A stretch of 64,000 nucleotides of DNA from Dromaius novaehollandiae (taxonomy: Eukaryota; Chordata; Aves; Casuariiformes; Dromaiidae). The notes beneath the pieces were generated by a model, which saw nothing but the letters and a program-made list of their open reading frames with translations, was not told the origin of the DNA and made no database searches. Below, piece after piece: positions 2,493 through 58,028 of the stretch (position 1 is the stretch's first letter; each line of letters begins with the position of its first letter). The DNA lies in assembly GCF_036370855.1 (NCBI RefSeq), contig NC_088117.1:1240001-1304000 (forward strand), in the 5' to 3' direction. Position numbers and translations under genes: made by a program.

Positions 2493-2499
2493 GACCTAC

Positions 2500-2654
2500 C
2501 CAGCAATCCCGAACACTCATGCCTATGCCGCTCCTTCCAGGATTTCCTTCTGCAAGCTTCACTGCAAGTGAAGATTTCATGGCAATGAATGCAAGATGTC
2601 AGCTGAACACCAACAGAACGTCCGCACTGATAGCAGTATTTAAAAAACGGTGTC
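2500..2654 (-). CDS. ANKMY1: ANKMY1 exon 15, MYND zinc finger
   Basis: 155 nt, acceptor TTCTAG and donor CTGG|GTAGGT. The MYND ligands are all present: CYQC, then CIHC nine residues later, CSEAC after five more, and H-x(3)-C in HRHEC. MYND fingers bind proline-rich peptides in partner proteins. The exon ends in phase 1. Reading through the donor gives only a few more residues (GRSDSH) before a stop at 2480, which would be a minimal C-terminus if the intron were retained. Confidence 0.92.
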
Positions 2655-30200: not shown

Positions 30201-32770
30201 TAGGTGTTCCCTCTATACTCCATAGCTCCAGGAAACCCTACAAAGCCAATACAAGCAAGAGCATAGTTCCCAGAAAATAACTGTATTGTCTTGTAGCTAA
30301 ATATTGATGCTATAATTCATTTGTCCTGAATTCTTATTCAAGTTTTGTTCCATTGAACTTCCAGATGTTTCTTATGAAACAAGTTAGCAGGGAGCTTAAA
30401 TCTTGTAAAATACAGGGAGGCTGTATCTCAAAAAGTCAGTTTTGCCCAGATAACTGCAGTCACTGTTTTTTATGAAATGCCATATTGCTGCTTTATGCTG
30501 AAATTGAGCTAGGACAAAGCAGACAGCCTTCCTTTAGGACCCCTTAGAGTGCATGTGGCTTGCAATATTCACTCTTTTCTGTGTATGTACATTTGCATAG
30601 GGAGTAGCAGACAATTGCCATTTTGCTTTCAGGCCCTTTGCAATCTTTCAGAAAGTATCTAGACAGAAAGCTCTCTCCAGCAAAAAATTAACTTTGTTTT
30701 CATCCTAGTTTTAAGCAAGAAATCCAGGTGTTGTAAATAGAGCGCGCTGGTCTTCTACTGAAGAAGCAGCATGTAGGCTTGTTGCACAGGCTCACAGCTT
30801 GGACTTTTGAGCCTGGAGCAAAACAAAGATAAATCTTACTGATGCCTCCAAATTCTGAAGTTTGGTATTTGGATGCTGTTCTTAAATGGCTGTTTCTAGG
30901 GTTAGTCAGTCCCATAGGTACAATGCAGTGAAGAGACCTGAACTATGCCAACATGCTTGCATGTTTACACCATGCAATTCAGGCAACTGAGATGGCAGCA
31001 GGTCAAAAGCAATCTAGTCATTTTCGTAAAGTAGTGTGCCCAAACCAAAAGGTCCTGACCTGAGATGATCGTGGTCTTCAGTCATATTCCTCACATTTTC
31101 AAAAGTTGTTTGGTCCCCCTCATTTGGACATCTCTGTATTGCATTTCTCAATGCAGGCTATATCCTTCGCAAAGGTTTTAGGGTCACCACTCAAGTCTCA
31201 TCTATGATTCCTGGATATTCATTCTGTGGGTCTCATTAGCAAGACTGATATGTGCTATCTAAACTGTGTAATTTCTCCAATCAGAAGTGAACTCCCTGCT
31301 CAGTATCTCTATCTTTTTAAGAACATTTGGCCACTGTTCTGCATATTCTGCAAATCATGGTCACATTCTTTGAAGTCTCTCCGCCACTCTTATTTCTGTC
31401 TTGATGATACTTAGGAACCCTTACTGGTCATAGATATTAAGTTGTTATATATAACATTCCATCCCTGCCTCATGGAGCTATAACTCTAAGTAAGTAGGAT
31501 CATGAATGGGTGAAAGCAAAATTTATCTGTCTTTTAACAATAGAGGGCTATTATGAAAAGTTTTTTGAAGCGGCCTGTAGCACCCACTTCCCAGTCACTT
31601 TCTAGCAACCTGCTAAGCTTACAGACAAGCCTAAAACTGCTGAGCTGGAATCCAGCCCTTCTGATTCCCATTACAATGATTCATCCACAAGTATCAGGTG
31701 AAATACCTCCATCTTGAAAGAGAAAAATTTTATATATAACCTAGCACCTGAAAAATCAGAAACTGCGAGGGAAGTATTTGAGTTCAAGTCTCTTATTTAC
31801 AGGCCGAGGGATTTCAGGTGCCTTAGAGCAAGCAAGCAGGGGAGAGGGGAATGAGGAATGCTACTCAGGAATAACAGACTTGGCCCTTATAGAACTGAGC
31901 TGCAGAGGTCTGCCATAGATGATAATTTCATTGCTTTCACCACATGGGATACACTTTCTGTCCTTGACAGTTTGCAACTATAGACTGAGAGCATAGTCCT
32001 GAGGTGAATGAATGTTCAACAGTTTACACAAGGGCCTGGTAGTACAACGAGTGCTTCGATTCCAACACAAAGAGATAGCACCTGGGCAGAGAGAAATATG
32101 ACCTATGGAGACAGTATAAAGTGAAACAGAAGCAAAGGGTATGACTGCAGTTACAAAAAGACCAAAATGAAATTTTAGACAGCTGAGTATAAAGACATCA
32201 TGTATAGCTTGTAGGAGCATCCAGTCAAAGCTTGTAGTTTCAAGGGCAAGTTTTGCACAGCATATGCAGCCTGCATTATGTAATGCTCTCAGCACTGGGG
32301 CAGGACATCATGTTGCCGTTGATCAATCGCCAGTGCAAAAAAACCTGGATGGTCTTTCTTTCTGCTCCAGTAGAGCCTAGGGAGGCACTGATACAGAAAA
32401 CCAGCTCATTAATTAATCTAATCCTGTCAATAGGAAGAGCTGAATGACATTTGTGCTGCACGGTTATTCAGTAGACCATCCTGAAGGAAATAGCCTTCCT
32501 TCAACCTCTTTGTGACAAGCAATAATTATATTTCTTGTGAAGTTTTGCGTATCTAATGTAATCCTTCATGTTCTCTGTAGCCATTTAATTTACAGTCTCA
32601 TTGTGGACCATGCCATACCCTAGGCCTTAAGATGTCCTGGGGCAGGAACTCAGACAGTGAATTTAGCACTGATTTGGATGTTTGAAATACCTTTAACTGC
32701 ATTCCTTAATTTTTCTCTTGTACTACTCTAGAGTAAAATAAATAGAAACAGTCAACTTACAGTTCTTACT
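27271..32770. other. Non-coding stretch, nothing recognised
   Basis: Frames of up to 131 codons occur on both strands at 27.3-28.1 kb but show no domain, no consistent splice sites and heavy overlap. They look like chance openings in moderately GC-rich DNA. The rest is AT-rich with no recognisable repeat family. Confidence 0.45.
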
Positions 32771-32774
32771 TATT

Positions 32775-35700
32775 CTTTTCACAGAATCACAGATTAGTCA
32801 GGGTCAGAAGGGACGTCTGGATCATCTGGTCCAACTCTCCTGTTCAAGCAAGGTCCGCTAAAGCAGGTTGCCTGCAAGTTTGTTCGGAGGGGTTTTGGAT
32901 ATCTTCAAGGGTGGAGACTACACAACCTCTAGGCAACCTGTTCCAATGTTCAGCCACCCTCACGGTAAAGTTTTTTCTTATATTCAGACAGAACTTTCTG
33001 TGTTTCACTTTGTGCTCATTGCCTCTCATTCTGTCACTGGGCACCACTGAGAGGAGTCTGTTTACACCCTCCCATAAAACATGGATAAGATGCCCCCAAC
33101 CCTTCTCTTTGCCAAGCAAGGGTCCCAGCTCTCTCGATCTCTGCTTGTATGAGAGATGCTCCAGGCTGTTAATCATCTTTGTGGTCCTTTGCTGGACTCA
33201 GTCTGGTAAATCCATATCTCTCTTGTACTAGGAAGCCCAGAACTGGACACAGTGCTCCAGATGTGACCCCATCAGTGCTGAGGAGAGGGGAAGGATCACC
33301 TTCCTTAGCCTTCTGGCAACACTCTTCCTAATGCAGCCCAGGATACCACTGGCCTTTGCCACGAGGGCACATTGTTGATTCATGTTCAACTTGTCCACCA
33401 GGAACCCCAGGTCCTCTGCTCTTGTTCCGGCTGCATTGTTTCCCAGCCTGTTTTGATGCAAGGGGCTGTTTCTCCCCATGTGCAGAACTCTGCACTTCCC
33501 TTTATTGAACTTCATGACGTTCCTCCCTGCCCATTTCTGCAACCTATCAAGGTCCCTCTGAATAGCAGCACAACCCTCTGGTGTATTCTCACAGTTTTGT
33601 ATCATCAGTAAACTTACTGAAGGTGCATTTGGTCCCATCATCCAGGTCATTAATGAAGGTGTGAGACAGTATTGTCCCAGTATCAAACCCTGGCAGATGC
33701 TAGTAGTGATTGGTCTCCAGCTGGATGTTGTGCTGTTGATCACAAACCTCTGAACCCAGCACTTCAGCTGGTTTTCAGTCCACCTCACTGTGCACTTATC
33801 TAGTCTGCACTTTGTCAACTTGTCTATGAGGATGTTATGGGAGACAGTGTTGAAAGCCTTACTAAAATCGAGGTAAACAACATCACTGCTCTCCCCTCAT
33901 CTCCCCAGCTAGTCATTTCATCAGACAAGGCTGTCAGGTTGCGTAAGCATGATTTCCCCTTTGCTGCTTACTCTTGATCACCTTCCTGTCCTCCTCATGT
34001 CTAGAAATGGTTTCCAGAATTATTTGCTCCCTCACCTTCCCAGGGATCGAGATGAGGCTGACTGGCCTGTAGTTCCCTGGGTCTTCTTTCTTGCCTTTTT
34101 TGAAGACTGGAGTGACATTTGCTTTCTTCCAGTCCTCAGGAACCTCCCCTGATTGCCCTGACCTTCCAAAAATAATTAAGAGTGGTCTCACAATGACACT
34201 GGCCGGCTCCCTCAGCTCTCATGGATGCATCCTATCACATCCCATGCACTTCTGTAGGTCCAACTTTTTAAGTGTTCACCAGCTCGATCCTTCTTGATGA
34301 TATATTCTCATCACTCCAGACTTTTTTACTGGTCTTAGGAACCTGAAGTTCCTGAAGGTCAGTCTTACCAGTAAAGACAGAGGTGAAGAAGGCATTCAGT
34401 ACCTTTTTCATGTCCTCTGTCACCATAACCCTCAATGAGGGTTATGAGCCCACATTTTCACTAGCTTTCCTTATGCTGCTGATGTACTTGCAGAAGCCTT
34501 TCTTGTTGCCCTTCACATCCCTCACCAGATTCCACTCCACATGGCCTTTGCCTTTCCTAACCTGATCCCTGCACACTCAGTGTCTCTATATTCCTCCCAG
34601 GTCAGCTGTCCTTACTTCTGCCCCTTGTATGCTTCCTTTTCTGTTTGAGCTTAGTCAGGAACTCCTTCTCATCCATGCAGGCCTCCTGCCAGTTTTGCTG
34701 GATTTGCTGCATGTGGGGTTGGACTGCTCTTCAGCCTGGGGGATGTGAGGTAAACCAGCTCTCCTGGACTCCTCTTCTCTCCAGGGCTGCATCCCATGGG
34801 TTTCTTCCAAGCAGGGCCCTGAACAGGCCAGAGTCTGCACTCCTGAAGCCTAGGGTTGTGATTCTGCTTTTTGCCTTGCTCCTTCCTTGCAGGATCCTGA
34901 ACTCCATCATCCTGTGGTTGCTGTTGCCAAGGCTGCCCACAGCTTCCACATCTCTGACCAGTCCTGCCTTGTTTGTAAGTACAAGGTCTAGCAGAGTGCC
35001 TCTCCTCGCTGGCTCCTCAATCACCTGAGTCAGGAAGTTGTCACTGATGCACTCCAGGAACCTCCTGGCTTGCTTGTGCCCTGCTGTGTTGTCCCTGCGG
35101 CAGATATCAGGGTAGTTAGAGTCCCCCATGAGGACCAGGGCCTGTGAACATGAGGCTTCTTCCAGTTTTCTGAAGAAGGCCTCATCTGCTTCTTCCTGAT
35201 CAGGTGGTCTGCAGCAGACACTCACAACAACATTGCCCATACTGGTCTGCCCACTAATACTGAGCCATAAGCTCTCAGCTGGCTCATCTCCCTTCCGCAG
35301 GCAGGGCTTCATCAACGTTCCAGTTGCTCTCTCACATAGAGGGTGACTCCCCCTCCTCACTTTCCCAGCCTGTCCTTCCTAAACAGTCCGTATTCATCCA
35401 TTGTAGCGCTCTAGTTGTATGAGCTATCCCACCACGTCCCGATGATCCCAATGAGAACATAGCCCTGTAACTGCATGCACACCTAATTCCTCCTGTTTGT
35501 TCCTTATGCTGCATGCGTTAGCACACAGGCACTTCAGAGAGGCACCCTGACATGCTGTCTTTCTAGAAAGGGCATGACAGCTTCCCCCATAATGTGATCC
35601 CACAGACACTTCCTTATTTGCTTACACTTGTGGTATGCTTCCACTTCAGCCCTGTGATGTTGATGAAGAGGTCCCTTCTGCTTACATCACCCTAAACCCT

Positions 35701-37100
35701 TTTTTTGCCAACCCATCCACCACTTCCTTACTTGACTGTTGGTCAATCTCTCACACTGCCATCATCCCTAGTTTAAAGCCCTCTTTCCCAGGTTGGTCAG
35801 CCTGTTGGCAAAGATACTTTTGCCACATGTGGTCAGGTGGATCCGATCTCTACCAAGCACTTGTCAGTCTTTGAAGAGGGTTCCATGGTCATAGAAACTG
35901 AAACCTGTCTGTCAACACCAGCTGTGCAACCAATTTTTGGCCTGCAGGATCCATTCAGTCCTCCACAGGCCCTTTCTCTTCAGCAACAGGAAGGAGGAGA
36001 ACACCACCTGGGCTCCCATGCCCTTTACCATTACCCCTGGAGCCATGTGGTCACTTCGATACTTTCCAGGTCTCCCCTGGAAGTATCATTAGTCCTCATG
36101 TGGAAGAGCAGCAGGAGTAATCGTCAAAGGGCCAGACAACCCTTAGCAGTCTCTCTACAGCATCTTGAATGTGAGCCCCTGGCAAGCAGAAAACCCCCCT
36201 AGATGGCAGGTCAGGTCAGCAGACGGTGTCCTCCTTCCCTCGCAGCAGGGAGTCTCCCACCACTGACACTCCCCGCTTCCTTCTGGTGCTGCTAGGTGGC
36301 TGAGGCTCAGCTCACACAGATGCTCCATTTGAGTGTGTTCCCAGGTCCAACAGCTACATGAGGAGCGAACATCTTCCAAAGTTTGAAGTCTTCCAGTGGA
36401 GCAGGAGCCCTCCTCCAGGTGCCATAAGTCACCAGCTTCCAGCCTTCACCATCATGGGAGTTTCCTACTTCATGATGTGATAGGCAGTGACTCTGCCTGC
36501 CCCTCCACTGCAGTTGGAGGTTCAGGCTCCTATATCTGCAGAGTCTCAGATATGATCCAGTTCATCTCCTTCTTATCCTCTCTGATGCTGCACAGTCTGC
36601 TGACCCTCTCCCTGAGCTCCTTGATTTGACATCTTGGCCTCCTGCAGGCAGAGAGACCTAGTCCCAGCCTCATCAAGGGGACCCAGGCACTTCCTGCAGG
36701 CTGAGACCCTGAGACTTGCAGGACTGCACCTCCTTTTGAGGCTCCATCTGTGTTGAAGCCTGTAACGTTGTAGGGACAATTGCTCTAATAGTTGTTGGGA
36801 CCATGCCCTGTTGCACATCACCGCCATGCTGGTCTGGTTGGTGTTCTAGGCCCTTCTTTACATCATGCTGCACAAACTGCTGTATGTTGGCTGCACTCTA
36901 GGTCTGGCTCTTACATAGGCCTCTCCCTATCACTGGTTAAAGGGGTGCTTGGACCTCCCTAACCAGGGGTCAGCTGGAACAGATACCCCAACAGGGTCTG
37001 ATCAGGGGTGACGGGCAGCGCTCATCAGTAGCTGCCAGAGCATGCTGAAGCTTCTCAGGAGAAGGCCTCCGGTGACTGTCCTTATCTGGCTCTCCTCTCC
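32775..37100 (-). mobile_element. CR1 LINE, nearly full length, inactive
   Basis: Minus strand, with the CR1 3' end at 32775-32840 (plus-strand cacagaatcacagattagtc, the complement of the usual octamer-like tail). Going 5' it has the C-terminal ORF2 region (33176-32844), reverse transcriptase (about 34190-33230, with [20 protein letters not shown]), endonuclease (35360-34731, with LVLMGDSNYPDICRRDNTAG) and ORF1-like debris up to about 36.9 kb. Endonuclease acids are altered: D-F-N is D-S-N, and the S-D-H motif is S-N-H. The reverse transcriptase has frame breaks around its T-D-D core. The 5' edge is approximate. Confidence 0.9.
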
Positions 37101-40100
37101 TGTCAGCAGCAGGCACCCTCTAGTTCCTCAGAGGTTCCCAGGAATCTCCCGATGATCTCCAACAAAATCACCAGAAGATCTAAGCAGAGCCTAGAAAATG
37201 CTATGCAAACAGCTGCATCTGGGGCTGCCTCTGTAAGGTGTGCTCCCTTACATCTTTGATGATTATTTATTTTGTTTTCTACATTATTTATCATCTACTA
37301 ACACATCATTTTTAAAATTATGGCAATACATCCTCACAAAAGATGCTTTGCTAGTATTCATCTGCTTAGCCACAGGTCTTAGGGAGAACATATCTTCTCC
37401 AGGGAGATGTCTTATACCATTCTAATAACAGATGCTGCCATCCACTTATGTGGACTGTCTAGAGGGATTCATCTTTTTTTGTTGTTGTTGTTATTGTTGT
37501 TGCTGTCTCCTAAGCCACCTCTCTGTGTCACTGTCTTTTGGTTGTTTCAAAGCACTGTAGTGGAGCCGGAGAGCCAAGGAATTTCTGGTTAGGTTTGTGG
37601 CATATATAGAAGTGTTTCTACCACCAGTTCACAGTGTAAGGAATTCAGTAGGACTGTTGCTAAACAGAAGAGGAATAGCAGCTTCCATAACAAGAAGAAG
37701 AGGAAAAAATAAAACTTTATTCCAAAATATATTACATGCAGCAAACATTGTCCTCAGTGTACTTCTCTCTTTAAAGCCTAGGGAGGAAATAGGCCTTGCA
37801 GTTACCCCAAAAGTGAATAATTTTGGAATTTACATCAATATAAACAATAAAATTAATGATAGTGAGCAGTTTTAGGAATAATTTGTTCTTCTATTTCATG
37901 GCAAGTTATTTTTATTCCTGCAAGGGTCAGTATGTCTTTCCACAGAGCAGCAGAGTGGAACTGCAGTTCTCTGTGTTCTGCAATACTCCCACTCAGTCCC
38001 ACCCCAATGCAATTAACTCCCACTCCAGAGAGTGAATAGTTATAAAATCCAGCAGAGAAACTATGTCAACAACAATTAACTAACAAACATTAGAAGAAAG
38101 GGCGAAGAAGGGAAAAGCCGGGAGTGGATCTGTGTCTCTCAATCTGGCTGCTTACCATGTTACTCTAGCAATAGCTACCGGTTGTAAGCCTGCAGTGCTT
38201 TCATGCCAATCTGTGAAAGGTCATGTGGTAATATGAACTTGCTTCTTCTTTTCTAGAATATGGAGGAGACATTTGGGTACTACACGAGATACTGTGCACT
38301 CTCTTGTATATCATTTTTTAAATTGTGATAGCTCAATTACACAGGAAGCTTCAGCACCTGAGTGGGAAGAACAGAAGGTCCTTCTAGAGGTTAGTCTGAG
38401 CTTGCACTACATTAAAGGTATGATTTAAACATGGGGTTCTTAAAAGATGTTCTCAGTTACAGCTAATAAATATTCTGAGATGAGAGAAATCCAAATTATG
38501 TTGGCCACTTTCTCCATGAATAGTTCAACAGATCATACAGTAATGAAAGTGATTGGTTCTCATACCTCAGATGCTTGAGGACTACCCTAAAGCCAAGAGG
38601 ATGTAGATGGTATCCTTCCACGAAGTTTCAAGCAGTAGTAGCTTGCCGCTGACTAACAGCTCCGTGGTGTCTACATAGTCCATAGGCATGGCTTTTATGA
38701 GGCTGGAAATCCTATGTTCAGTGGGACTGCCTCATTAGATTTTGAGAGGAACAAGCTCTGATTTCAAGGCTCCCGATCCAAGAAATGGCCACTTCAATGA
38801 GTGGCTGTGATGCAGCACTTCTACTGTTAGAACTGGAAGGCCCCAAAAACTTGACAGTATAAGTGCCAACTTCCAGGAAAGAAGGCAGCACATTTCCCTG
38901 TCAATAATGATCTTATTTAAATCTTAATTTGAACTGGGAATACATAAGTGTTATTTCCCAGGTTTTGCATTTTCCTGTGTGTAAAAATATGTTAGAATAT
39001 TTTAATTTCTTTCCTTTATATTCTGTGGATCCTGTGGTTTTGTCTTGAGGTCTCAGCTGTGATCCCCTCTTTTTTATTTTAATTATTTTTAACTGCTAAA
39101 TTTGAGATGCCTTTTAATTATAATTTGCATGTACTGAACTCCCCAGTTTAATTTCTTTATGTACAAATAATCCTTCTCAAATAAACAGAAATGCAACAGC
39201 ATCCAGGCAGGTAGTGACGATGTGAAGCTCATGAGTAGAACCAGGGGCTGGGAAAGTCATTAAAGCTGAAATGGGAACCTTCATTTTGCTTTTTTATAAC
39301 TGCCGGTTCAGTTGCTATTTCAGAAATAGTCTTTTGTTGTAATTGATTAATCATTTGCCTTTGCTCTTTCTAGCAAGGAATCAAAGTGACATTTTAATTG
39401 AGAACACAGGCTATCATAACAAGGAAGGCAGGAGATCATGTTCTTTTGCAGTTGTTATCTGATGTGCTCCCTCTGTACAAAAGAGAAATGAGAAGGTCCT
39501 TTTGGAAGAAAGCCAGAAAGTGGTTTTAGAAATCTCAGGTCCAAGTCTCAGCTGACAAAACAGACGTCAGTCTCTCTGTCTGAACTGAGCCCAGTACAGT
39601 GAGTTATGATGGCGGGGGATAGCAAGGGATCAGGCAGGACTCATTAAACACAGGACTTGTGAGTAAATTAAAAAACTAGACCCTAAACTCAAATCAGGGG
39701 GAGTCTACTGAAGGCCTAGATGGACCCCAGCTTGTATTGTGCAAGGCCTTTAACTGAGTTGGGTCTATGCTGAGGTCTGAGAGAAATGCTAAGTTTTAGA
39801 CAAGCCATGAATGTGTACAGATTGCCTGTTGCTGCAGTCCTCATCTCTTGTTACTGTTCTTCTGAATGGATAAATAGCATTTAGTTTAGAAGGAGAAGCA
39901 AGGAGTGGCTATATCTGCCCATTTCAGGGACCTCTGAATCCCCCTCATGCAGCTTGGTTCTACTGAGAATACACACCTAGTTAAGCTGGGGTATTAGAAG
40001 TCAGGAACCCTGCATATGAGAGGGAGAACTACAGCACACAGGATGAGTGTGCAGTTTTGGAGGGATGTGTGTCTTGGTTCGTGGCCTTCCACTGCAGGAG

Positions 40101-41558
40101 AGCTTGTGCTCAAGAGACCCTTCAGACCACATCTTTCACACCACAGTGTAGATGGAGGTTACCCTAGAGATGGTGGGGAGGCTTGGAAAAGAGGGTGTGG
40201 GTTACTATATTTTGAAATGTCGTCTCTACCTTGAAGCATCCCTGGGAGAGAGCCAACTGAATTTCAATGATCTGTTGCTTGAAACCTCTCCATTCTGAAA
40301 TTTCCTACAAAATGTCAATTCTGAGGAAAAAAGGGGTTTTGGAAATAGAATATTATGTTTCCAAAATAGTATCTGTTCCGTGGTGGGACCTTAAGAATTT
40401 CACCAGAGGTATTCAGCCCTGAATGCATTACATGTGATGTGATGAGGCAGCTGGTGCCTGCACCTCCATGAGAACCCCACAGCATTGTGTGCTAGGACTG
40501 TCTCTCTCAGGTCTTTCAGACTCCCAGACCAGCATATTCACGTTCTCAATTTTAAGTTAGCAGATTCCACAGGCTGTTTGTATTCATCAGGCTGTGATTA
40601 ATTCAAGTTATTGCTGGACTTGCAAGGAATCTTGGCTACCATGGATAGTGCACTTTTACAGGGCTCCTCAAAACTACAACCATTAATACTTGCATATTCC
40701 AACTCATCCTCTGCAGCAGCACATCACGTAAGCTGTTCAGAAGACAGGCAGGGCCTGAATGGAAACCTGTTTGTTTCTTGATTCAAGTTCCTTCATGTGC
40801 CAGTAGTTTCTAAATATTGACAAGTTCACATTTTCCAGCAAAATTATGTTTTCACAGAAAGTTTCCAGCCAACACTTCAGGGCACATTCATCGGAATGGC
40901 AGGACTGGTGACTAGACCTTAGTATGGGAGGGATGAAATGGTGTTACTGCAAGAGGATATCTTCTGCAGCGAAGTGATGACAGAAATCTGTGTGAATCCT
41001 TTGGAGGAAGGCTGCAATCTCTAGGGAACCTGAAAAAGAGTGGAAAAGAACAAAAGGAAACTCAAGCCGCACTGGATTGACAATGTCGTTTTGTGTTCAC
41101 ATCTCCAGCTCTGCCCATAAAAATGTGGTTCTTGTAGTCATCATTGAGGGCTGTCCCTGATTACAAACTTACCAGGTGGTTTAGTTGTTTCGTGGTACAC
41201 CACCTTCTAGGATGGTGTGAAGTTGTGGTTCATGGGCAATTCATCATAAACTTTTATAAAAAATCTCTTGGTGACTCTGTAACAGAATGCTCCAGAAAGC
41301 AGCAAGAATATCAAAGCCACAGAAGGCTTTAGTTTTTTTTAAATCAAATTTTATTGGGGTTTTCTCCATTTAAAAATTAAGCTTTATCTTCACTGTGATC
41401 TCTGTGGGAAGAACCAATGGAAGGTTTAGCTAGCAAAGGGGCAGGAAAGTGTGTAGGAGGGGTTTTATGCTGTAATTCCCATTCTCTAAAGCCCTAAAGA
41501 GCAAGAGGGCATGGGGAGAAGACAAGTGAAACTCTCACTGTAAAGACCAGCACTAGCT
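37101..41558. other. Non-coding stretch upstream of ficolin unit A
   Basis: No exon recognised. There is a short imperfect (TTG)n run at 37477-37505. The last few hundred bases should contain the ancestral promoter of unit A; no clear TATA box was seen. Confidence 0.45.
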
Positions 41559-41634
41559 ATGGGAAGAGCTGCCTAGCAAACCCTCCTAGCTTTACTCAGC
41601 CTCGCAGCAGTAGTGTATCAGGCCATTGCCCAAG
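41559..41634 (+). pseudogene. Ficolin A exon 1, signal peptide with internal stop
   Basis: ATG at 41559, donor CAAG|GTGAGT, phase 1. The reading is MGRAA, stop (TAG 41574-41576), then QTLLALLSLAAVVYQAIAQ. Compare unit [21 protein letters not shown]. The hydrophobic core, length and donor match, so this is the true homologous exon, with a nonsense codon. It lacks the Cys-Pro that ends exon 1 in unit C. Confidence 0.75.
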
Positions 41635-42492
41635 GTGAGTAAAAGACAAAACTGATTTATCTAATAACCTGGTTCTTAGAGGATCACATTATAGCTGAGT
41701 TGATCTAATGATGAGGACCATTCAACTTATTTAAACCCTTATTCAAACCTCTGCTGTTGGCTATACATTCATCTTCTTCTCCTTCACTACATTGTGTGGT
41801 CATGCAGTTGGAAGGTTCTGGCAAAACAAGCATTTGCTGTTGTATTAGCCAGCTGAGTTGATATCTTCTGTAAGCACAAGACCACTGGATCTCACATAGA
41901 GAGAAAATGGTCAGGAGAGTGATCATGGGCAAAGATGGAGAGGTGGGGATTGGAGTCTGACCACTTTTTCTGACAGCACACCACTGTTAAACTGACCTGG
42001 CTATCTGAATCTGCATCCTTAGGTAGAGAAAACATCTGCTCCTCAGTGCTCCCTTCATATGACTATGTATTTGGTTCAATTCCTAGGTTTAAATGCAAAT
42101 CTCATTTTGGGTTAACTATGGGAGCTCTTAACATTCTTGTCTGTCTAGGAAGGGAATGATGGAGTAAAGGACAAATGAGATCAGCCAAAAAGGTATATCA
42201 AAAAACCTCACTGTTAGAGGAGAAGGACAGAGACGAGGCAACTAAGAGTTTTCTCTATTGTGCCCTGTGCAGGAGGAGCAAGAGAAAAATTCTGGGATGG
42301 GGGCTGGTAAGGGAGGAAGTAAACCTACCTGTACTTGTGTTTCAACACACCACAACATGCATCATTTCATTACTAGCCAAAACCACTGGAGCTCTGCTGG
42401 ATTTCAGGAGTAGCACATGCTTCCTGCTAGACTACACAATTCACAGGTTGTGTAAGAGCTGTGGCTATTATAATTGCATTTTATGTCTCCAG

Positions 42493-42606
42493 AAGTCAAA
42501 ACCATGGATGCTGAGCAAAATAAACAACTCTCTCTTCCTGAAGGATTCACTGGAACCCTCGATGCCAGCGGCTCTGCGAGACTGCTTCTGCCTTTTGTCC
42601 CCAAAG
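42493..42606 (+). pseudogene. Ficolin A exon 2, collagen exon with lost Gly-X-Y
   Basis: Acceptor TCTCCAG, donor AAAG|GTAAAT, phase 1 at both ends, 114 nt, exactly the length of exon 2 in unit C (60021-60134). Aligned codon for codon it keeps V1, L12, G17, G20, A24-S25-G26 and K37-G38. It replaces the collagen glycines at 23, 29, 32 and 35 and turns the N-terminal Cys18 into Phe. The opening EVKTMD resembles the EVKMVG start recalled for human FCN2. The frame is open but cannot form a triple helix. Confidence 0.75.
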
Positions 42607-42975
42607 GTAAATTCCCCAAAACTAAGTGCGAGTCTGATAGATGGTGGGGAAGGGGAAATGACTTAATTATCTGCCTTATGGTGCTGATTAAAATCCAAGT
42701 TCAGAACTATGGACCTAGATATAAAAACATTGTCTGCAGTCATAGAAGGTCGTATCCTTCACTGACATAACGTGGACTGGCTTTGGTGACTCTAATGCAG
42801 TCCTGGTCTTCTGCATTTGGGAAAGGAGGGTCTATGATCTGTGGACTCTGCTGTGATAAAAATGCAAGGCCATGGTCTTGAGCAGATGAGAAAGCTAGGA
42901 CCTAACAAGATACTTTACTACCCCATGGTCATTTTACATGTTGCACTCCACCACTGTTTTTCTCTTCCTGAACAG

Positions 42976-43005
42976 GAGGCAAGGCTCTCCAGTCATGTAT
43001 CACAG
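42976..43005 (+). pseudogene. Ficolin A, candidate short third exon
   Basis: 30 nt between TGAACAG and CACAG|GTGAGT, phase 1 at both ends like ficolin collagen exons. It encodes GKALQSCIT with no Gly-X-Y pattern. Splice sites and phase are its only support. The 54-nt and 36-nt exons of unit C have no other visible counterpart here. Confidence 0.35.
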
Positions 43006-43514
43006 GTGAGTGTTTCCAACTCATGTTATGTGAGTTGCTACTTTATTTCATTGGAGTTGCAAAGTGTGGAATTGAGGGAGTAGAAATACATGGAAAAGCA
43101 TATGCAATTGACTCTGAATTCTGCTGATGCTTGTCTTTTTTTTTCTGTTCTATTAGCATTTCTGGCTTAAAAAGTGTTCAGTTTTACCAGGACCCCTATA
43201 AATCATAATGCATGACAGGTTACCCTGAAAGATAACTTAGTGACTTCCAGAATCTACTGTGAATCCTTGTCTACTTTGCCATCTTGAATCTGAAGAAGAT
43301 ACTTACATGTAAACAGCAGCTTCCTGATTTTTTTTTCCCCAATGCTTGCTAGGATTTCAGAAAAATGGTTTAATCCAGTTTTCCATAACTTTGGGCTTCA
43401 GAAAATCAGGAAACAACTTTTTGAAAAACCTAGTTCCATAAGAAGTCCTCAAACTGTCTTTGTTGGAATTTACTGCAGATTTCTTTAATAACAATTACTT
43501 GTCTTCCTGTGCAG

Positions 43515-43640
43515 GAGAAAAGAACTGCAAAGAACTGTTAGACAAAGGAAACAGGCTGAGTGGTTGGTACACCATTTATCTCCCAAACTGTATGGCCATC
43601 CATGTATTGTGTAACATGCATACGGAAGGAGGTGGATGGA
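43515..43640 (+). pseudogene. Ficolin A, fibrinogen-like exon 1
   Basis: Acceptor TGTGCAG. It reads [20 protein letters not shown], then [20 protein letters not shown] and GW, with the first disulfide pair of the domain. The donor lies in a run of gtaa repeats (GGA TGG A|GTAAGTAAGTAAG) and leaves one base. The next exon starts in phase 0, so the junction shifts the frame and meets a stop soon after. Confidence 0.85.
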
Positions 43641-44265
43641 GTAAGTAAGTAAGAGCGAGAAGAAGAATACTTGTAGAGAAAACATCTAATGGATTTCATT
43701 AGAGGTGGGATAGATTTTGTTTGAATAAGTTTGTCCCTAGAGAGGCCATCGCCTATTTGTCAGCATTGTATAATAACCTCTTGAAAACTGAAAATGAAAA
43801 CAGTTTTCTGCATACTGTCATGAAGATTCAGGATTTCTAAAGCAGAATTTCAGGCAAAATGGCTTCTGACTTTCCTGTACTGCAAGTCTCTTTGTAGTCT
43901 CAAACGAGCTGGGAGGTGGTTGAGCAAAAATGGAGGCTGGTGACCTGAAATGGTAATTAACTTAATACTGTTTCCTTAGAAAACAAGAAAAAGATAAAAA
44001 TGATAAGGCAAAAATGAGGACCTAGAAGGAAGGGCAAGGAAGTTTTCTCTGTGCTACAGTCAGTAAAATTTCTAAGGAAAGTCTTTCAAGTTAAATGAGC
44101 TTTGAACAATCTGGAAAATTGGGATCATTTACAATACTGACAGCATCTTTTTACCTTTTCCCCAAAATGAAATTTCAGTTAAATCAACAAAATATAAATC
44201 AACAAGACAATTTTATTCAGAAAGTCCAAAAATCCCATATCTGACTGTCTTTGCCCTCTCCAAAG

Positions 44266-44395
44266 GTCTTTCAGAGAAGAATAGATGGCTCCGTAGACTT
44301 TTTCCGTAACTGGGAAGAATACAAGAAAGGTTTTGGCAGCCAACTAACAGATTTCTGGTTAGGGAATGAATATATTCACCTTCTGACATCTTTTG
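44266..44395 (+). pseudogene. Ficolin A, fibrinogen-like exon 2
   Basis: 130 nt, acceptor TCCAAAG, donor TTTTG|GTAAGT. It reads [20 protein letters not shown], then [20 protein letters not shown]. Typical ficolin core; the frame is open. Confidence 0.92.
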
Positions 44396-45435
44396 GTAAG
44401 TATCGTGTTTTTCATTTACTTTGCCCCATCAGCTTCTCCCTCCGTACTTGATACAGAATTGTATTTGGTTAAAAGAGCTCTAAACTGCCTGTTAGGCAAG
44501 AAAAGAGACACTCTAAATGTAACTGTTCATTATTGAGTGTTTTTGTAGAATGAGACAGACTGTGGAATCATAATTGCCATCTAAACTTTGTTTATGTGGG
44601 CTCTTAATGGAAACCATTAGTAGCCATGAGGATCACCATTACATAGGACTGCAATGGTATAGGCTGTAACAGATAATATTATCCATAAGCAGCCTTGGCC
44701 AGAAAAATTTATATGCAGAGCTAATGGGTTCAGAGTAGTTGCTGTAGTCACACTTGCCTCAACAGGATTGTGAGGCAATGGACAAATAACCTGTCTGTCA
44801 AAATCCATCCTTGTCTTACAAAGAGAGCCTGCCTGGCAGGCTTGAAGCACAATAGCTGGGAGGTGTAAGGGCTGCTCTGTTTATGGTCTCTTGTTCAGGC
44901 TTCTTTTGTTACTTTCACAAACAAGAAGTTTGAAGCTACACAGAAAGTGCGGAGTGGAGCTAAGAAGACCTTTATTCCCAGACACTCATAGTACTGTTTA
45001 CACCAGACACAATCAACCAGGTTTTCAAGACACTGGAGATATTTCTTAGGGTTATTAGTTTTTCAGTTGAAGTTCTTGAAGACACCATCTTCAAATATCT
45101 CCCAGCTAAACCCTTGTGAGTTAGGCTTCGCCAGGCAAGGCTTTGAGCATGTCTTTACTTACGCTTAGTGTCATTCTGATGCTGGTGCATCTCGTCAGTT
45201 TTGTCCAACTCAGGTGGCAGCTTCTCAGCCAATGGAAGTAGGAAATAGCTCTGGGGAAAGAAAGGGGTGCTGGTGTCAGAGTTGCAGGAAAGGGCACCAC
45301 TTCTCAAGGAGGAAGCTGATGGTACTGAGTAGCATCTCTGACTCAAACATTGCATTCAGAAGCCTGTCTTACAGGTGTAAAACAATGATGGAAAACAAGA
45401 AGTGAATGTTTCACTTTCAAATCTGCTTTTTGTAG

Positions 45436-45570
45436 GTACTCAGGAACTTCGCATTGACCTCATGGATTTCAATTACAAACACACATTTACCAAGTATGAA
45501 TCATTCGAAGTATTTTCAGAGCAAGACAATTACAAGCTGAGTCTTGGAAGTTTCCTTTTAGGTACTGCAG
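45436..45570 (+). pseudogene. Ficolin A, fibrinogen-like exon 3
   Basis: 135 nt, phase 1 at both ends, acceptor TTGTAG, donor GCAG|GTGAGT. It reads GTQELRIDLMDFNYKHTFTK, then YESFEVFSEQDNYKLSLGSF. Intact. Confidence 0.92.
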
Positions 45571-46202
45571 GTGAGTGTTGGGCATCATCACAAACTTTCA
45601 TAGCAATAGCAAGTCTGACAAACGCAACAGCAGCACTGAAGAATAGCTTCAGCGTAAGCAAGACAAACTAGTTCCCAAGAAAAAACTCTTGCTGTCTCTT
45701 TTACGCCAGTCCTGAAGTTACAATCCACTCTTCCTTAGCCCTCACTCAGCCATTTTACATTAACATCAGTGTAACTAAAGTATGACTAATTCAATAGCTT
45801 AGGGACTGATTTATTTGAATTTCAAAAGGATCTTCTTGAATAAATTGGTTCAGATAAAATAAAAGCAGACCTCACTTTGTTATACACAGAATAGGGCCTT
45901 ACCTTCTAACGCTAAAGGTAGAGAGAGGGTTTTTTAATGGTTTAAGTACATTTACATGCTTTTTGTTTACTGCACTTGTCAATCTAAGTTGCTATCAGAG
46001 TTAGCAAAAGGTTTGGAAAGCCTTATATAGTGCACATAATTTGCAATATTTTCCCTTTTTTCCTAGATATTGCATGTTTACACTCAAGGACTAGTTCGTT
46101 ACTTTTTCTTTTCCAAACACGTTCTGCTGCTTTTTGAGAGACCTACTCATAGGGTTCTCTTGGGCAAAGACTTAATTTTGATTTTGGCTGAAATTATGTA
46201 AG

Positions 46203-46341
46203 TTTAACACAGCATAAGCTAGATCCAGTTAGTTTTGTCAGCTTCATTTGCCATTTCTGTATCAGTGTAGTGCTGTTTTTTCCCTAAGCCTTATACTTTC
46301 AGCCATTTGGAATGCAATTGCTAACTGCTCTGTGCCTAAGC
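46203..46341 (+). repeat. Direct repeat, copy 1 (last intron of ficolin A)
   Basis: 139 bp repeated at 46830-46968 with a constant offset of 627 bases, no indels and about three mismatches, all transitions (for example at 46213). The copies flank the last coding exon. Copy 2 starts at the stop codon and covers the first part of the 3' UTR. Confidence 0.95.
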
Positions 46342-46586
46342 TAAAGACCAATATTTTTGTGATAGGAAGATATGTATATTCCTCAATATGAAGACTGAAG
46401 TTATATCACTTTGAATTCTTGTGCAAATTCAAGATTAAATTCAGTTGTGCACTCAAATGCTAGCGATTTCGTAACTAGATACTGTTGTTAAAATGCTTTG
46501 TCCACCTTTTGGTAGTAGATGTGGACACTGTGGGGCTAGCCTGAATGCACTTTGCCATAAATACTAATATTGGTCCATTCTTTCAG

Positions 46587-46834
46587 GGGATGCATTGTCA
46601 GTCCACCATATGATGCCATTTTCAACTAAAGACCGAGAGCAAGATCCTCAGTCGAACAAGTGTGCAACAGCCTACAAAGGTGCTTGGTGGTTCCATGATT
46701 GCCTAGATTCCAGTTTAAATGGGATGTATGAGAATGGACAACACGATACATATGCACATGGTATAATCTGGAATACAGACAAAGGGTATTATTACTCCTA
46801 CAAACAGACTGAAATGAAATTTTGCCCATTTTAA
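46587..46834 (+). pseudogene. Ficolin A, last fibrinogen-like exon with stop
   Basis: 248 nt, acceptor TTTCAG, stop TAA at 46832-46834. It reads MPFSTKDREQDPQSNKCATA, then YKGAWWFHDCLDSSLNGMYE, and closes with YYYSYKQTEMKFCPF. The calcium loop is D-R-E-Q-D rather than the usual D-x-D-N-D. Lys stands before the Cys that forms the acetyl-binding cis-peptide, where human ficolins have Asn or Asp. Confidence 0.92.
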
Positions 46835-46968
46835 CACAGTATAAGCTAGATCCAGTTAGTTTTGTCAGCTTCATTTGCCATTTCTGTATCAGTGTAGTGC
46901 TGTTTTTTCCCTAAGCCTTATACTTTCAGCCATTTGGAATGCAATTGCTAACTGCTCTGTGCTTGAGC
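46830..46968 (+). repeat. Direct repeat, copy 2 (3' UTR of ficolin A)
   Basis: Partner of 46203-46341. It begins at the last codon and stop and forms the proximal 3' UTR. It matches no interspersed repeat I know, so it is best read as a local duplication. Confidence 0.95.
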
Positions 46969-47022
46969 AACAGTTCCATCATTCAGGTAGTCCAGGACAA
47001 AGTACGGAGGAAAAGAATTCTG

Positions 47023-48913: not shown

Positions 48914-49052
48914 GAAATAACAAGCTGCATATAGATTTTGAGGACACTGGTGGCAAGAAATATTTTTCTAAGTACAGGTCATTCCAGATTGTGGAGGAGC
49001 CTGAAAATTACAAGTTGATTCTGGGGCAAATGGTGACTGGTGATGCAGAGAG
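48914..49052 (+). pseudogene. Ficolin B1, isolated fibrinogen-like exon
   Basis: Acceptor CTCCTCAG. It reads GNNKLHIDFEDTGGKKYFSK, then YRSFQIVEEPENYKLILGQM, homologous to exon 45436-45570 of unit A. The homologous part is also 135 nt long (48914-49048, ending GCAG). The base pair after it is AG instead of GT; the next GT is four bases on (GCAGAGAG|GTAAGG), so using it shifts the frame. No partner exons were seen within 3 kb. Probably a remnant of a separate ficolin copy. Confidence 0.8.
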
Positions 49053-52000
49053 GTAAGGTGATCTCAGTTATGTTCACAGAAAAGGCAAAACCTGTTCTGC
49101 TGACTGAAATGCCACTAATCTTGTTAGAGAGGAAACAAATCCCAAACTGCGCAAGTTTGGGACTGCAGCAAATGGCTCTAAACACTAACAAAACATCATT
49201 GCCAGAGCACAGGTAACACAAGCCCTTTACAGCCCCCTCTTCCAAGCACAGACCTGAGAAAACTTTCCTCCCAAAGACCTTCTGAGCCCAGCTGCTTAAA
49301 TACTTGCCCAGCTAAGTCCAATGGGTTTAGCAGGCTGATCTAATCAAGGCAGGATAGGCCTTTAATTCAAGGACTAGATTCCTTGCCTCTGGGGCTGTTT
49401 GACTCTTTCCAGGTGGGCTTCCCTATATACGATTTGGCCATAAAGGAAAAACAAATTCCCATCACCTGCTGAAATGCTCTGCAATGATCCAGCATGGGGC
49501 TGGGAGAGCTTGTTGTGATAGGCTAGTAAGATACCAGCCTCTCATGTCCACCTGTCTCTCTGACTGCCAGTTTTCAGAGGTCATGTGAGTTGGCACAATT
49601 TCCGGGAGAATTCCCCACTCTTCAGCCAGGGAAATACAGGGAGGAGAAAGAGAGGGAGCGAGAGACACTGCTTGCTTTCCAGCCACAAATTCCCTCGACC
49701 ACTAGTGCCATCACCGAAATCTCATCCCTTCCCAAGCATCTCAAAACAAGCCTTCCTGCAGAGCCAGAAGGACTTCTGTATTGGCTGATGAATGGCAGGG
49801 GCTTGAGAGGAATTAATAGTGCTGGGCAGGTGTTAGTTAGCTGTGCCACAGTCTGGACTGACGACCCTGTCCTCCCACAAACACGACTTGAGGAGTAAGG
49901 TGTGCTTTCTGCTTTGGTTGCTGCAGTCATCCCTCTCCCCAAACCTCACACATGCATTTCTCTATCTCCCCTCTCCCTGGAACCCCTTTCTCCCATGCGC
50001 GGTCCTACAAGGATCAGTGAGTCCATCCCAGCATGAGAGCGGGGCCAAGGGGAGGAAGGGGGACAGAAAAGCAGGGCAGGACCATGGCGGTAGCTGCACC
50101 TTGAGGTCCATGGAAGCAGTTTGCTCTGAACCTCTTCAGAGCAGTTGGTGCATGGCCACTCAATTCATCATCAGCATGCTGTACGGGATGTGCAAACGCT
50201 CTGCAGTGGGTGCCCCAAGAGGGTAAAGGCTGAGACCCTCATGGGGAAACAAAGGTCGCCCAGCCTCATGCTGTGTTGAGAGCTCCAGGCAACAGAGAGG
50301 AGCAAAGGGAAGGTGGTGGGGAAGGAGGAAGAGTCATCTCTCCTCGGTGCATCCCTGCTGTCATGTGCTCCTGACCTGCAGAGCCGATGGCTTGCTGTAA
50401 CCAAGCGTGCTCCCGGGGGGTCTTCGCCAGGATCTGCAAGAGCAGTCTCTCTGGAAATGTCACTGTGATCAGCAACTAAGCAGAAGGGGGACAGCAGAGG
50501 GAAAGGAAAGAATGAAGGAGAGAGAAAGAAGAAGAAACTGAAAAGGGAAGAAGGAGAAATACAGACCAGAACCAATTAGAAGCTTCTACCTTTAGCCTCT
50601 ATCCCTGGACAGATGTCTTTTTTAATCTAGTAAGGGAGGAAGTATCTAATGCCACTTCTTTTTCTTCACCACGGAAAAGCATACTCCAGAGAAAACAGCA
50701 AATGAGTCAGCTCAGCACCTCTTCAGTACTCTTTTCATGGCTATGGAATTTCAGTACAGGATTATATATATATTTTTTTTGTACTGAAAGATGAACTCCC
50801 AGTTACCCAGGAGCAATTCAAGAATTCACACATTTTTATGAAGTCCACCTTTCCTTGAAATATCTCATTTTGACTTCTTCCTGGGATATTTTTTGGTCCA
50901 GTTTAGATCTTGCAAAACCGACTGGCAATACTCCATCTGCTGGTTTATATATGCCTGTTTGCCTCCATGCCTGTGCATTGTGTCAGGCTGAATACATTTT
51001 GTTCTAGTCGTAGCAAATAACTAAGGCAATACTTCCCCCATTCTCTGAGATTTATGTAGCAGCAGATTCTGTTGCAGATCTTGGTGTGATCATTTCCACA
51101 CAACAGACTCTGCAGTTTCCTGTGACCATGATGTGGGCTCTGCAAATTTTAATTGGAGCAACAGGCACCTGAGTTGATTTTTCTTGAGTTGGATGGTTAA
51201 AAGTGGCATCTTTGAGGCCTTGGTTATTAGGCATCATCCAAAATAAATTTGTGAGAGTTATGTCTGATATTTAAACTGTTATTTCTGCAGCTTGTTCAAA
51301 GTCTCCACAGACCTTCTTTTAGGAGTTCTCTGAACTCAGAAGTTCCCAAATATGAGTTTTTTCCTCTCCAAATGGAACTGTCTGCTCCTTTACCACCCAG
51401 AGGACATGTGACTCAGCTGTAATTCCCTGGAGGCTCCTTCCAGACTGATTTATCCCATGATCCTATGATCTGCCCCCAATCATTCTGGGGTAAAAGAAAA
51501 GCAATAGGCATGCAATAACTGGGTTTGGGGAGGTCAAAATATTCTTGTGGTGTCCTTCACAGTTCCATTTACAGTCTGGCTGATACACTTCCCCTGAACT
51601 TGATTACACTGGGAAAGCCTTTCCTTCTTAAAATGGGCGGAGGAAGTGGGGGGAGAGAGTGTTTTTTCCTTTTGATCACATATAGAGCTGTGTAGGACCT
51701 GAGATCTACTTTTGTGCATCTCCAAACTACCAAACAGTGGCCTACAGAGATGCAGCGAGATTTGTTCAGCGCCATTTGTTCAGTTCCTCTACATCAGCTT
51801 TCACCAAAGCAGCTTGCAAAACATGCCTGTTCTCTAAGTTTGAGGGTAGAGCTGTTTCATGGGAGGGGGAAAACTGCATTTCTAGCTCAATTCCAAATTC
51901 TTGAAACAGTTTTAACCATGTTGTGGGTTAGCAAAAGTAATAAATCACTAATCCAGTGTTTTGGAAATATAAACATTTTAACCAGTGCAGTTAAGGAGAG

Positions 52001-52267
52001 TGACAAAGATCTTACAAGACAAGTAAATAACCGCCACTGCTGTGTCTCCCCCATTCCTGGCACACAGACAGTCCAGGACCAGGGACTGTGCAATACTTTC
52101 TCCTGTCCTCTAGCATGCTTAATATTCAAATTTGGACTGTAAAGTAACATGATGGGAAGATCAGGACCTTATTGTGCCAGGATGGGAGTGGGGTTAGTGC
52201 TGAACTGCATGTTCTGCTCAGCACATGGTCTCCAGTAATGCAGAATCTGCAGCTCTTGTTTTTGCAG
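49053..52267. other. Spacer between ficolin remnants B1 and B2
   Basis: No coding exon recognised. A purine-rich, nearly strand-asymmetric tract lies at about 50483-50565. The open frames at 49.6-50.6 kb overlap on both strands and have no domain. Confidence 0.4.
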
Positions 52268-53717
52268 GAGCCAAAGGAGATGCTGGGGAACCAGCAAAGA
52301 CAGGCAGGAGACATCAAAGATCCGATATTTTATTGTATGAAAAAAGAGAGCAACTCTGCAAATAACCACCAAGTTTCCTGAGCCCTTAGTGCAGCAGAGG
52401 TCAATGAGGCTGTGAGTCTGTCCAGTTTCTACCACGGAACTCTTGTCAGTTCTGGAAAGATCAACGTATCTCAAGCTCTGCTCACACCTGTAGTATAACG
52501 GTATCTTCTGCAAGAATGGGGGTCAGATAAGGACTCCAAAGAAATAGTTATTGTCATGCAAAGAAGCCATTCCAGATGGAGATCATGCTAACTGCTTTCC
52601 AGCTCTTCTTAATTTCGGAGGAAAATAAAAAACACAAACTGATCCTAGGAAACTTCAGTGGTGGCAGTGCAGTTAAGGAGGATCCAAGGGATGATCTGGA
52701 GCTTCTAGCAAGGGGTGGATGATCTGCAGAGAAAAAATGATGTTGTATGATATAATGACAAGACATGAAGTGTTTTTACCTTCATGTGAATGGTTTTGTC
52801 CCGTCTGTCCTGTAAGAGACCTTGCAGGACCTCTCAGGAGCTGGCACTGCTAGGGATGCTAGCACGAGCAGGATAGTATCCACCACAGTCCCAGAGCGCT
52901 GTGAAAAACCACCCCAGAGCATCACTGATCTTCCCGGGATTACGAGCTCCCCTCAAGCCAAGGCTGCTAATTCTAAAGACTAAAAAGGCACAGCATAATT
53001 TAATAACACGCCTTAGAGATCTGTAAATAGAAAAACTCTCACTCCATCAGGCATTTTGAGTTAGTTGTTCTGACTGAGCTTTCCATTTGCTGAGGAAGGG
53101 TCCGAATATGGAATTTATTGGACACTAAAAATAATAACTGACAGTTGTTTTCATGTCTGGGCTTTCTAGCACTTGAGATAGGACACTAACATAAGCAAAT
53201 AACAGAGCAGCAGACTGGCAAGACAGACCCAAATATCTGGGATTCCAGAGATCTTACTACTAGTCTGCCCTGCCTGCGCCAGTCTATTTAAATGGATCCT
53301 TGCCACCTTTGGCTTAGTAAAGGGGAGTGTGAGGACAGGGACTTTGCCTCCACTGCAGAGGACTGCACGTTCCTGGAGGCCCAGAGAGGACAGGCCTAGA
53401 TGGAGGGGCTGGGACTGTGGAGACACACAGAAGCTGGAGTTTTAGCAAGATTTGTTAGTTTTCTCCACAGCGGGTTCATTGATCAAACACAAAAGCATGC
53501 TGTTTTCAACCAAAGACCGTGATAATGATGCAATCCACAATAATTGTGCTGTAACCTACAGAGGGCCCTGGTGGTACAGCCAGTGCCACAACTCCAACCT
53601 AAATGGATTTAACACCGAGGAGCCCAGGACAGTTTTGCAGATGGAGGGAAGTGGCAGACAGGCAAAGGATACAATTACTCCTGCCAGCTGTCAGAGATAA
53701 AATTCAGGCCTGTGTAG
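52268..53717 (+). pseudogene. Ficolin B2, broken copy with collagen and fibrinogen remnants
   Basis: Three pieces in ficolin order. At 52268-52319 a collagen remnant after TTTTGCAG reads GAKGDAGEPAKTGR; its donor GT is now AT. At about 52556-52672 a fibrinogen exon reads FQLFLISEENKKHKLILGNF and SGGSA; its donor GT is now TT and its acceptor half is unrecognisable. At 53471-53717 is the last exon: acceptor [26 protein letters not shown], then [17 protein letters not shown]. The frame then breaks, and the next frame gives [18 protein letters not shown] and a stop. At 247 nt it is one base shorter than the 248 nt of unit A. The first two fibrinogen exons are missing. Confidence 0.85.
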
Positions 53718-54238
53718 CCTGGCAGGAAGGCTTTCCTGAGCACATTCCTCATCCAACCAGTTGTGCCAGAGTGACCAATCCCACCTGCATCTCTGCAGCT
53801 CTGTACATGACAGAAATACAATAAGCAAAGAAAATGGGCTTGGGAATTGACCTTCTGCTCTTAAGGAATCATCTGAACAGGGAGGGCACAGAACATCCTC
53901 TGCCTCTCCTACCAATCATATCTTTGCCTGCAGGAATTACTCTGTATGTGAACTATTCCTGTTCTTTCAGTGATGAATGGCTGCCAGCATTTCACAGAAC
54001 AGAAAAGGTGTTACCAGAGATTATAAAAGATGTTAAAAATTGAAAGTTTGGTACAGAGGCTGGTGGGAAAGAGTCCTTTCTGGTAAGTGGTCACAATTTA
54101 TCACCGTAAGTGCAGTTAAACAAAGGCCACCCGATGCCAGCTCCTGGAGGAAACCAAGCAAATACCAAACCAAATGTTCAAGAAGGGCACGCAGCTGGCG
54201 TGCAATAACGGATAGGGAGGTTTCCTAATCGACTCTTG

Positions 54239-57949: not shown

Positions 57950-58028
57950 ATGGAGAGGACAGCCCCAACCCTCCTCGTTCTGCTCAGCCTAACGGTGGCA
58001 GTTTCTGATGCCCAGGACTCCTGCCCAG
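57950..58028 (+). CDS. FCN: Ficolin C exon 1, signal peptide
   Basis: 79 nt, donor CCCAG|GTGAGT, phase 1. The ATG is preceded by CTTGCC and followed by G. The likely cleavage site is after VSDA, leaving QDSCPG as the mature start with its oligomer-forming Cys. Confidence 0.88.

Follow-up and report, generated by a model that had tools for sequence, protein, structure and literature searches.

Introduction

The closest described relatives of the locus analyzed here, a ficolin copy that we refer to as unit D, are the human ficolins FCN1 and FCN2 (M- and L-ficolin), with 126 and 120 of 217 residues identical to unit D, respectively. Unit D occupies positions 41559-46834 of the window, a 64,000-nucleotide (nt) stretch of emu DNA (Dromaius novaehollandiae; contig C20:1240001-1304000) in which ficolin-type pieces were mapped by tblastn. 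Positions below are those of the window, and the exons of unit D and of its neighbor unit C lie on the plus strand. Unit D differs from both human proteins in having no collagen helix, no N-terminal cysteines and a broken frame. Its recognition domain belongs to the same family as those of FIBCD1, MFAP4 and other fibrinogen-domain proteins, which carry no ficolin-type collagen stalk.

In the covered passages of PMC3088710, the N-acetylglucosamine (GlcNAc) pocket of M-ficolin comprises Phe274, Asp282, Cys283, His284, Tyr300, Ala301 and Tyr312, and His284 was indispensable for pH-dependent binding in simulations. The mannan-binding lectin-associated serine proteases (MASPs) interact with the collagen-like domain, according to passages of PMC3240626. 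The same source describes ficolin copies that were lost while other ficolins stayed, as with unit D, namely the rodent FCN3 pseudogene and primate FCN frameshift alleles. In the marmoset, two FCN1 alleles differ by a frameshifting insertion in exon 2, and both carry more frame-altering deletions (PMC3240626, passages covered). Unlike what we propose for unit D, a prior loss of the collagen domain is not described for these cases in the passages covered.

In this study, we found unit D to be a genuine ficolin copy of seven exons and six introns whose frame is broken by a stop codon and by a frameshift inside the lectin domain. We consider it probable that unit D is an unprocessed (duplicated) ficolin pseudogene that lost its collagen stalk before it died. 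It would then be ordinary in kind with an unusual prehistory, the evidence being good for the key lesion and moderate for the stalk-first order.

Results

Unit C begins at 57950, about 11 kb downstream of unit D, and ends 3.7 kb past the window edge. Its nine exons, the number also given for human FCN1 in the covered passages of PMC3240626, form one uninterrupted reading frame that includes a collagen domain; they measure 79, 114, 54, 36, 36, 128, 130, 135 and 248 nt. On the same layout, the exons of unit D measure 76, 114, none, none, 30, 126, 130, 135 and 248 nt. Exon order and phases are common to the two copies, and exons 2, 5, 6 and 7 of unit D match their counterparts in length (114, 130, 135 and 248 nt). 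The gene structure is therefore that of a ficolin, save for an exon 4 that is 2 nt short and two absent collagen exons, and it is unlike that of the FIBCD1/MFAP4 group. The two copies differ in that the nine exons of unit C share one open frame, whereas the seven of unit D are interrupted by a stop and a frameshift.

Exon 1 of unit D (41559-41634, 76 nt, donor gtgagt) aligned, together with its 5' flank, with exon 1 of unit C. It is signal-peptide-like except that codon 6 is TAG (41574-41576), as the original prediction had read it. Exon 2 (42493-42606, 114 nt) is the former collagen exon and contains an in-frame ATG at 42505 in the context ACCATGG. The 30-nt linker exon 3 (42976-43005), which encodes GGKALQSCITG including split codons, aligned with QSCATG of M-ficolin. 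The fibrinogen domain starts in exon 4 (43515-43640, 126 nt), continues through exon 5 (44266-44395, 130 nt) and exon 6 (45436-45570, 135 nt), and ends with TAA in exon 7 (46587-46834, 248 nt). There are seven Cys in linker and domain together, one more than the six of M-ficolin; the additional one is the third residue from the C-terminus, in exon 7. The conceptual lectin domain, joined across the exon 4/5 frameshift, matched Pfam Fibrinogen_C with 223.5 bits, so a ficolin-type fibrinogen-like domain is present. Its best PDB matches were ficolin-1 (299.6 bits) and ficolin-2 (291.8 bits), against 192.5 (FIBCD1) and 187.5 bits for the next ones.

Intron 6 also contains a second copy (46189-46346, plus strand) of the terminal 20 nt of exon 7 together with about 140 nt of 3' flank. 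It is 93.7% identical to 46815-46973 over 159 nt, with 144 nt at 97%, and lies about 627 nt upstream of that stretch.

All four fibrinogen exons of unit D are open singly, each in the expected frame, and to that extent the original prediction of an open lectin domain stands. Joined, they are not open. The exon 4 donor (GGA/gtaagt at 43640) is in phase 1, whereas the exon 5 acceptor (ccaaag/GTC at 44266) is in phase 0; the canonical join shifts the frame, and the 15th codon past the last Trp is a stop. Later donors of the GTAA repeat (43644 and 43648), joined to the acceptor at 44266, also led to stops. In unit C, the donor at the matching place is ATT/gtgagt, the next exon begins with GTTTTTCAG, and the 128-nt exon ends in phase 0. 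Since the nine exons of unit C form one open frame with this junction, the working phase here is 0. Of the six donors of unit D, that of exon 4 is also the weakest, with 6 of 9 consensus positions against 7 to 9 in the others.

We then paired GT donors in 43560-44199 with AG acceptors in 43700-44395. The results showed 38 in-frame, stop-free pairs, all of which remove part of the conserved GGGW-VFQRR stretch, and alternative splicing was rejected as a rescue of exons 4 and 5 because each pair costs conserved residues. As far as these junctions indicate, no canonical splicing would yield the full lectin domain of unit D, whatever the start; the frameshift lies inside this domain, so no upstream start can rescue it. 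A scan of 37000-42492 for an alternative signal-peptide exon gave no match under the thresholds used (shuffles, mean 0.13) and recovered exon 1 of unit C as a control; an alternative leader exon upstream of exon 2 was accordingly rejected for this range at these thresholds. With TAG at codon 6 and no substitute leader, unit D is without the signal peptide for secretion that a ficolin has.

The TAG and the exon 4 end are two separate lesions, neither in a homopolymer. Unit D thus combines retained introns, a related intact copy nearby and disabling lesions, as duplicated pseudogenes do. The original prediction had offered two readings, a pseudogene with lectin exons not yet decayed, or a lectin domain selected from another start. 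The exon 4/5 frameshift supports the former more strongly than had been claimed. The latter does not hold today for the canonical transcripts examined, given the frameshift and the lack of a leader exon in 37000-42492 at the thresholds used. As history, it has some support, in that the collagen part seems to have been lost while the lectin part was held. The two readings look sequential rather than exclusive.

Exon 2 has the length (114 nt) and the phases of the unit C collagen exon (60021-60134) and an open frame, in agreement with the original prediction, which had also noted correctly that four collagen glycines and both N-terminal cysteines are gone. Of the seven collagen-register Gly of unit C exon 2, three are kept in unit D and four are not. 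The Cys of unit C exon 1 and the Cys of its exon 2 are both absent, leaving unit D without the N-terminal cysteines that serve ficolins for interchain disulphides. The 54-nt and 36-nt collagen exons of unit C (exon 3, 60983-61036; exon 4, 62421-62456) have no counterparts. A Pfam search with the residues of exons 2 and 3 of unit D returned no families at E values up to 0.1, and hence no collagen, whereas the joined collagen residues of unit C matched Pfam Collagen. The longest Gly-X-Y run was 3 in 41559-43515, compared with 7 in unit C exon 2. In the 369-nt intron 2 of unit D, it was 2, and no collagen remnant stood above background (mean 1.5 and maximum 4 per 369 nt, window 1-40000).

The DNA identity of exon 2 between units D and C (50 of 114) was rejected as proof of homology, being within chance for the window, where the best other ungapped match reached 52. 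At the residue level, 8 of 37 positions are identical (shuffle p 0.0046), and all three Gly of unit D exon 2 sit in collagen register (shuffle p 0.0046). The homology of the two exons is drawn from place, length, phases, these 8 residues and the Gly in register.

To assess constraint, we compared 209 lectin codons of units C and D. The residues were identical at 127 of the 209, and differences fell on codon positions 1, 2 and 3 in 49, 43 and 112 cases. The proportions of differing nonsynonymous and synonymous sites (pN and pS) were 0.238 and 0.686, and dN/dS was 0.155, a ratio that sums both lineages and in which dS, at about 1.8, is saturated. In neutral runs, zero stops were left in 627 nt in 24.1%, 7.1% and 0.8% of cases at K of 0.05, 0.1 and 0.2, where K is the number of neutral substitutions per site; a separate neutral run gave 24.4, 6.2 and 0.7%. 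The stop-free lectin exons thus leave room for no more than about 0.1 neutral substitutions per site after constraint was lifted, and the retention of all 12 splice dinucleotides (GT or AG at each end of the six introns) fits a young death. The unconstrained time of unit D would, on these estimates, be short relative to the age of the duplication. Over 210 positions with human M-ficolin as outgroup, 27 residues were private to unit D and 14 to unit C (chi-square 4.1). Such an excess is what a late unconstrained phase would give, and faster adaptive change would give it too.

We also counted exon 7 changes three ways, leaving out unit C and using the decayed units A and B of the same cluster. 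By codon positions 1 to 3, there were 5, 5 and 12 changes for unit D, 18, 13 and 8 for unit A, and 14, 14 and 19 for unit B; the corresponding count in exon 6 gave 3, 6 and 9 for unit D. As a sign of constraint on unit D, the three-way exon 7 count was rejected because it includes the branch shared with unit C, and a four-way count replaced it. Polarised by units A and B, the exon 7 changes were 3 silent and 10 replacement on the branch of unit D, and 7 and 7 on that of unit C.

To place the loss of the stalk in time, we simulated the neutral decay of unit C exon 2 together with the unit D lectin exons, with 4000 runs at each of six K values (0.05, 0.1, 0.2, 0.3, 0.5 and 0.8). The loss of at least four of seven Gly and of the Cys, in runs where exon 2 and the lectin exons all stayed open, was seen 0, 0, 2, 0, 0 and 0 times, the two positive runs being at K 0.2. 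Retention down to 8 of 37 residues with all exons open was seen in no simulated run. The open frame of exon 2 alone says little, since the exon remained open in about 26% of runs at 50% identity. In these simulations, the collagen loss does not fit within the time since release, indicating that the stalk was probably lost first and that death came later.

Discussion

We infer the following order of events. An old duplication from the lineage of unit C would have given rise to unit D, which long stayed coding. While still coding, it would have shed two of its collagen exons, and exon 2 would have lost its Gly register; the gene would have persisted as a fibrinogen-domain lectin without a collagen stalk. 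Only later would exon 1 have gained its TAG and the end of exon 4 have become 2 nt short, a change that shifts the frame within the lectin domain. A spliced message of unit D should now hold a reading frame of five codons. Should translation resume at the exon 2 ATG, the product would be a leaderless fragment ending 14 residues into the shifted frame, without the part from exons 6 and 7 that holds the Ca2+ and acetyl-binding residues. The open lectin exons and the simulations, which are moderate evidence, suggest that exon 2 departed from the collagen register at a time when the lectin exons remained under constraint, and that a stalkless lectin existed for some time.

Several points weigh against this order. 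A genome search with the residues of unit C exon 2 returned only unit C and not unit D. The exon 7 count shows no constraint on the branch of unit D, which looks relaxed in that exon, with numbers too few to decide. Long constraint on unit D is suggested by the pairwise ratio, with its saturated dS and two summed lineages, and by the open exons, neither of which is branch-specific. The simulation starts from unit C exon 2 rather than from the ancestor, uses substitutions only and treats all exon 2 divergence as neutral, which makes it a guide and not a proof. The data also come from a single assembly, in which a segregating null allele is indistinguishable from a fixed one.

The alternative that survives best is a plain pseudogene, which died with a normal collagen helix and whose exon 2 and collagen exons decayed afterwards with the rest. 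The TAG, the frameshift and the missing pair of collagen exons would all follow from it, the adjoining units A and B are decayed as well, and the excess of replacement over silent changes in exon 7 is in its favor. It would nevertheless have to explain why exon 2 shares 8 of 37 residues with unit C when the lectin exons share 127 of 209, and why the length and open frame of exon 2 were kept; the neutral decay that this alternative requires was reached in no more than 2 of 4000 runs, whichever of the six K values was used. We regard it as unlikely. An assembly error or an individual null allele, with the species carrying a working non-collagenous unit D, seems to us less likely again. It accords with the otherwise good preservation of unit D, with the use of one assembly and with the frame-breaking allelic differences recorded for ficolins, as in the marmoset FCN1 (PMC3240626, passages covered); against it, there are two separate lesions outside homopolymers, and unit D is single in the assembly, so there is no second copy to compare. 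That unit D is a living gene, from which an unusual splice or an alternative start yields a non-collagenous lectin, is very improbable: the individually open lectin exons, the 12 intact splice dinucleotides, the ACCATGG at 42505 and in-frame non-standard junctions on paper (e.g. 43644 to 44277) speak for it, but all 38 in-frame pairs delete part of GGGW-VFQRR and no alternative signal-peptide exon was found in 37000-42492 at the thresholds used.

Under the preferred reading, a pseudogene that lost its stalk before death, unit D illustrates that open exons do not make an open gene, as each lectin exon is clean but the message breaks where two of them meet. Should the proposed order be true, a complement-type lectin parted with its effector stalk at a time when selection still acted on its recognition domain, and the stalkless step could be sought alive in related species.

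In M-ficolin numbering, unit D keeps Asp264, Cys270, Trp279, Asp282-Cys283, His297, Tyr300, Ala301 and Tyr312, and differs in having Glu for Asp262, Tyr for Phe274 and Leu for His284. Residues 262 and 264 are, we take it, Ca2+ ligands. Given the pocket changes, including Leu at 284, the sugar specificity or pH response of the extinct protein was probably altered. With the collagen-like domain as the MASP-interacting part, complement activation would not be expected of a stalkless form. More tentatively, and with some doubt, the ancestor of unit D may have been a working ficolin without collagen stalk and N-terminal disulphides, a lectin cut off from MASPs and complement and perhaps pairing through the new Cys third from the C-terminus; relatives, or other alleles in this species, may still carry intact versions.

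Across the genome (1.47 Gb, 271 contigs), unit D occurs once; the other DNA matches were the last exon of unit C (71%) and a 63-nt stretch on contig C4 (79%). Exon 7 of unit D as a query returned 22 places, with unit C next best at 60% and the rest, including unit B, at 49% or less. Fibrinogen-domain matches numbered 84 at exon level. We compared the unit D exons with 14 loci outside the cluster, which we take to be tenascin, FIBCD1/MFAP4, angiopoietin-like or fibrinogen-like genes and not ficolins. Unit C is thus probably the one ficolin of this genome that is intact, though not certainly so, a statement that covers the 14 loci compared. In viral contigs, one stretch fit a pattern and none was confirmed. 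Literature searches on avian, chicken, bird and reptile ficolin and on ficolin with ANKMY1 returned no papers, which does not show that the locus is undescribed.

The remaining exons of unit C were placed at 57950-58028 (exon 1) and 63550-63585 (exon 5, collagen end and linker), with exons 6-9 outside the window in C20:1304001-1310000. In the otherwise intact unit C, the first of the Cys that precede the fibrinogen domain, the one of QSC in unit D and M-ficolin, seems to be absent, and no convincing linker exon with a Cys was found between 63590 and 64975. Also unusual is a Cys at the beginning of the exon-6-equivalent of unit C (TCEL).

Other ficolin-type pieces in the cluster are decayed. 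The tblastn map placed a last fibrinogen exon with stops at 31971-32178 (unit A, plus strand), part of a remnant at 29999-32178 with an exon-6-like piece (30147-30188) and an exon-7-like piece with stops (31971-32176). Unit B comprises, on the plus strand of the same map, an exon-6-like fibrinogen remnant (48915-49050) and an exon-7-like remnant with a frameshift (53468-53719). The region 48915-53719, in which these lie, holds at least one decayed unit besides unit A, perhaps two, with exon-6-like pieces at 48922-49047 and 52570-52671, a possible collagen exon at 52267-52311 and an exon 7 with a frameshift at 53468-53711.

Upstream of the ficolin cluster, the minus strand of 2480-21712 carries a MYND finger (2480-2749), a MORN repeat (21422-21712) and ankyrin-like pieces between them, exons that presumably belong to a gene resembling ANKMY1. 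Three related repeats (11949-13495, 32757-34222 and 58731-59829), 68-74% identical and with reverse-transcriptase-like reading frames, are what we take to be CR1-like elements. A weak endonuclease-domain match (Exo_endo_phos_2, 26.7 bits, just below the cut-off) was observed on the minus strand at 34731-35378.

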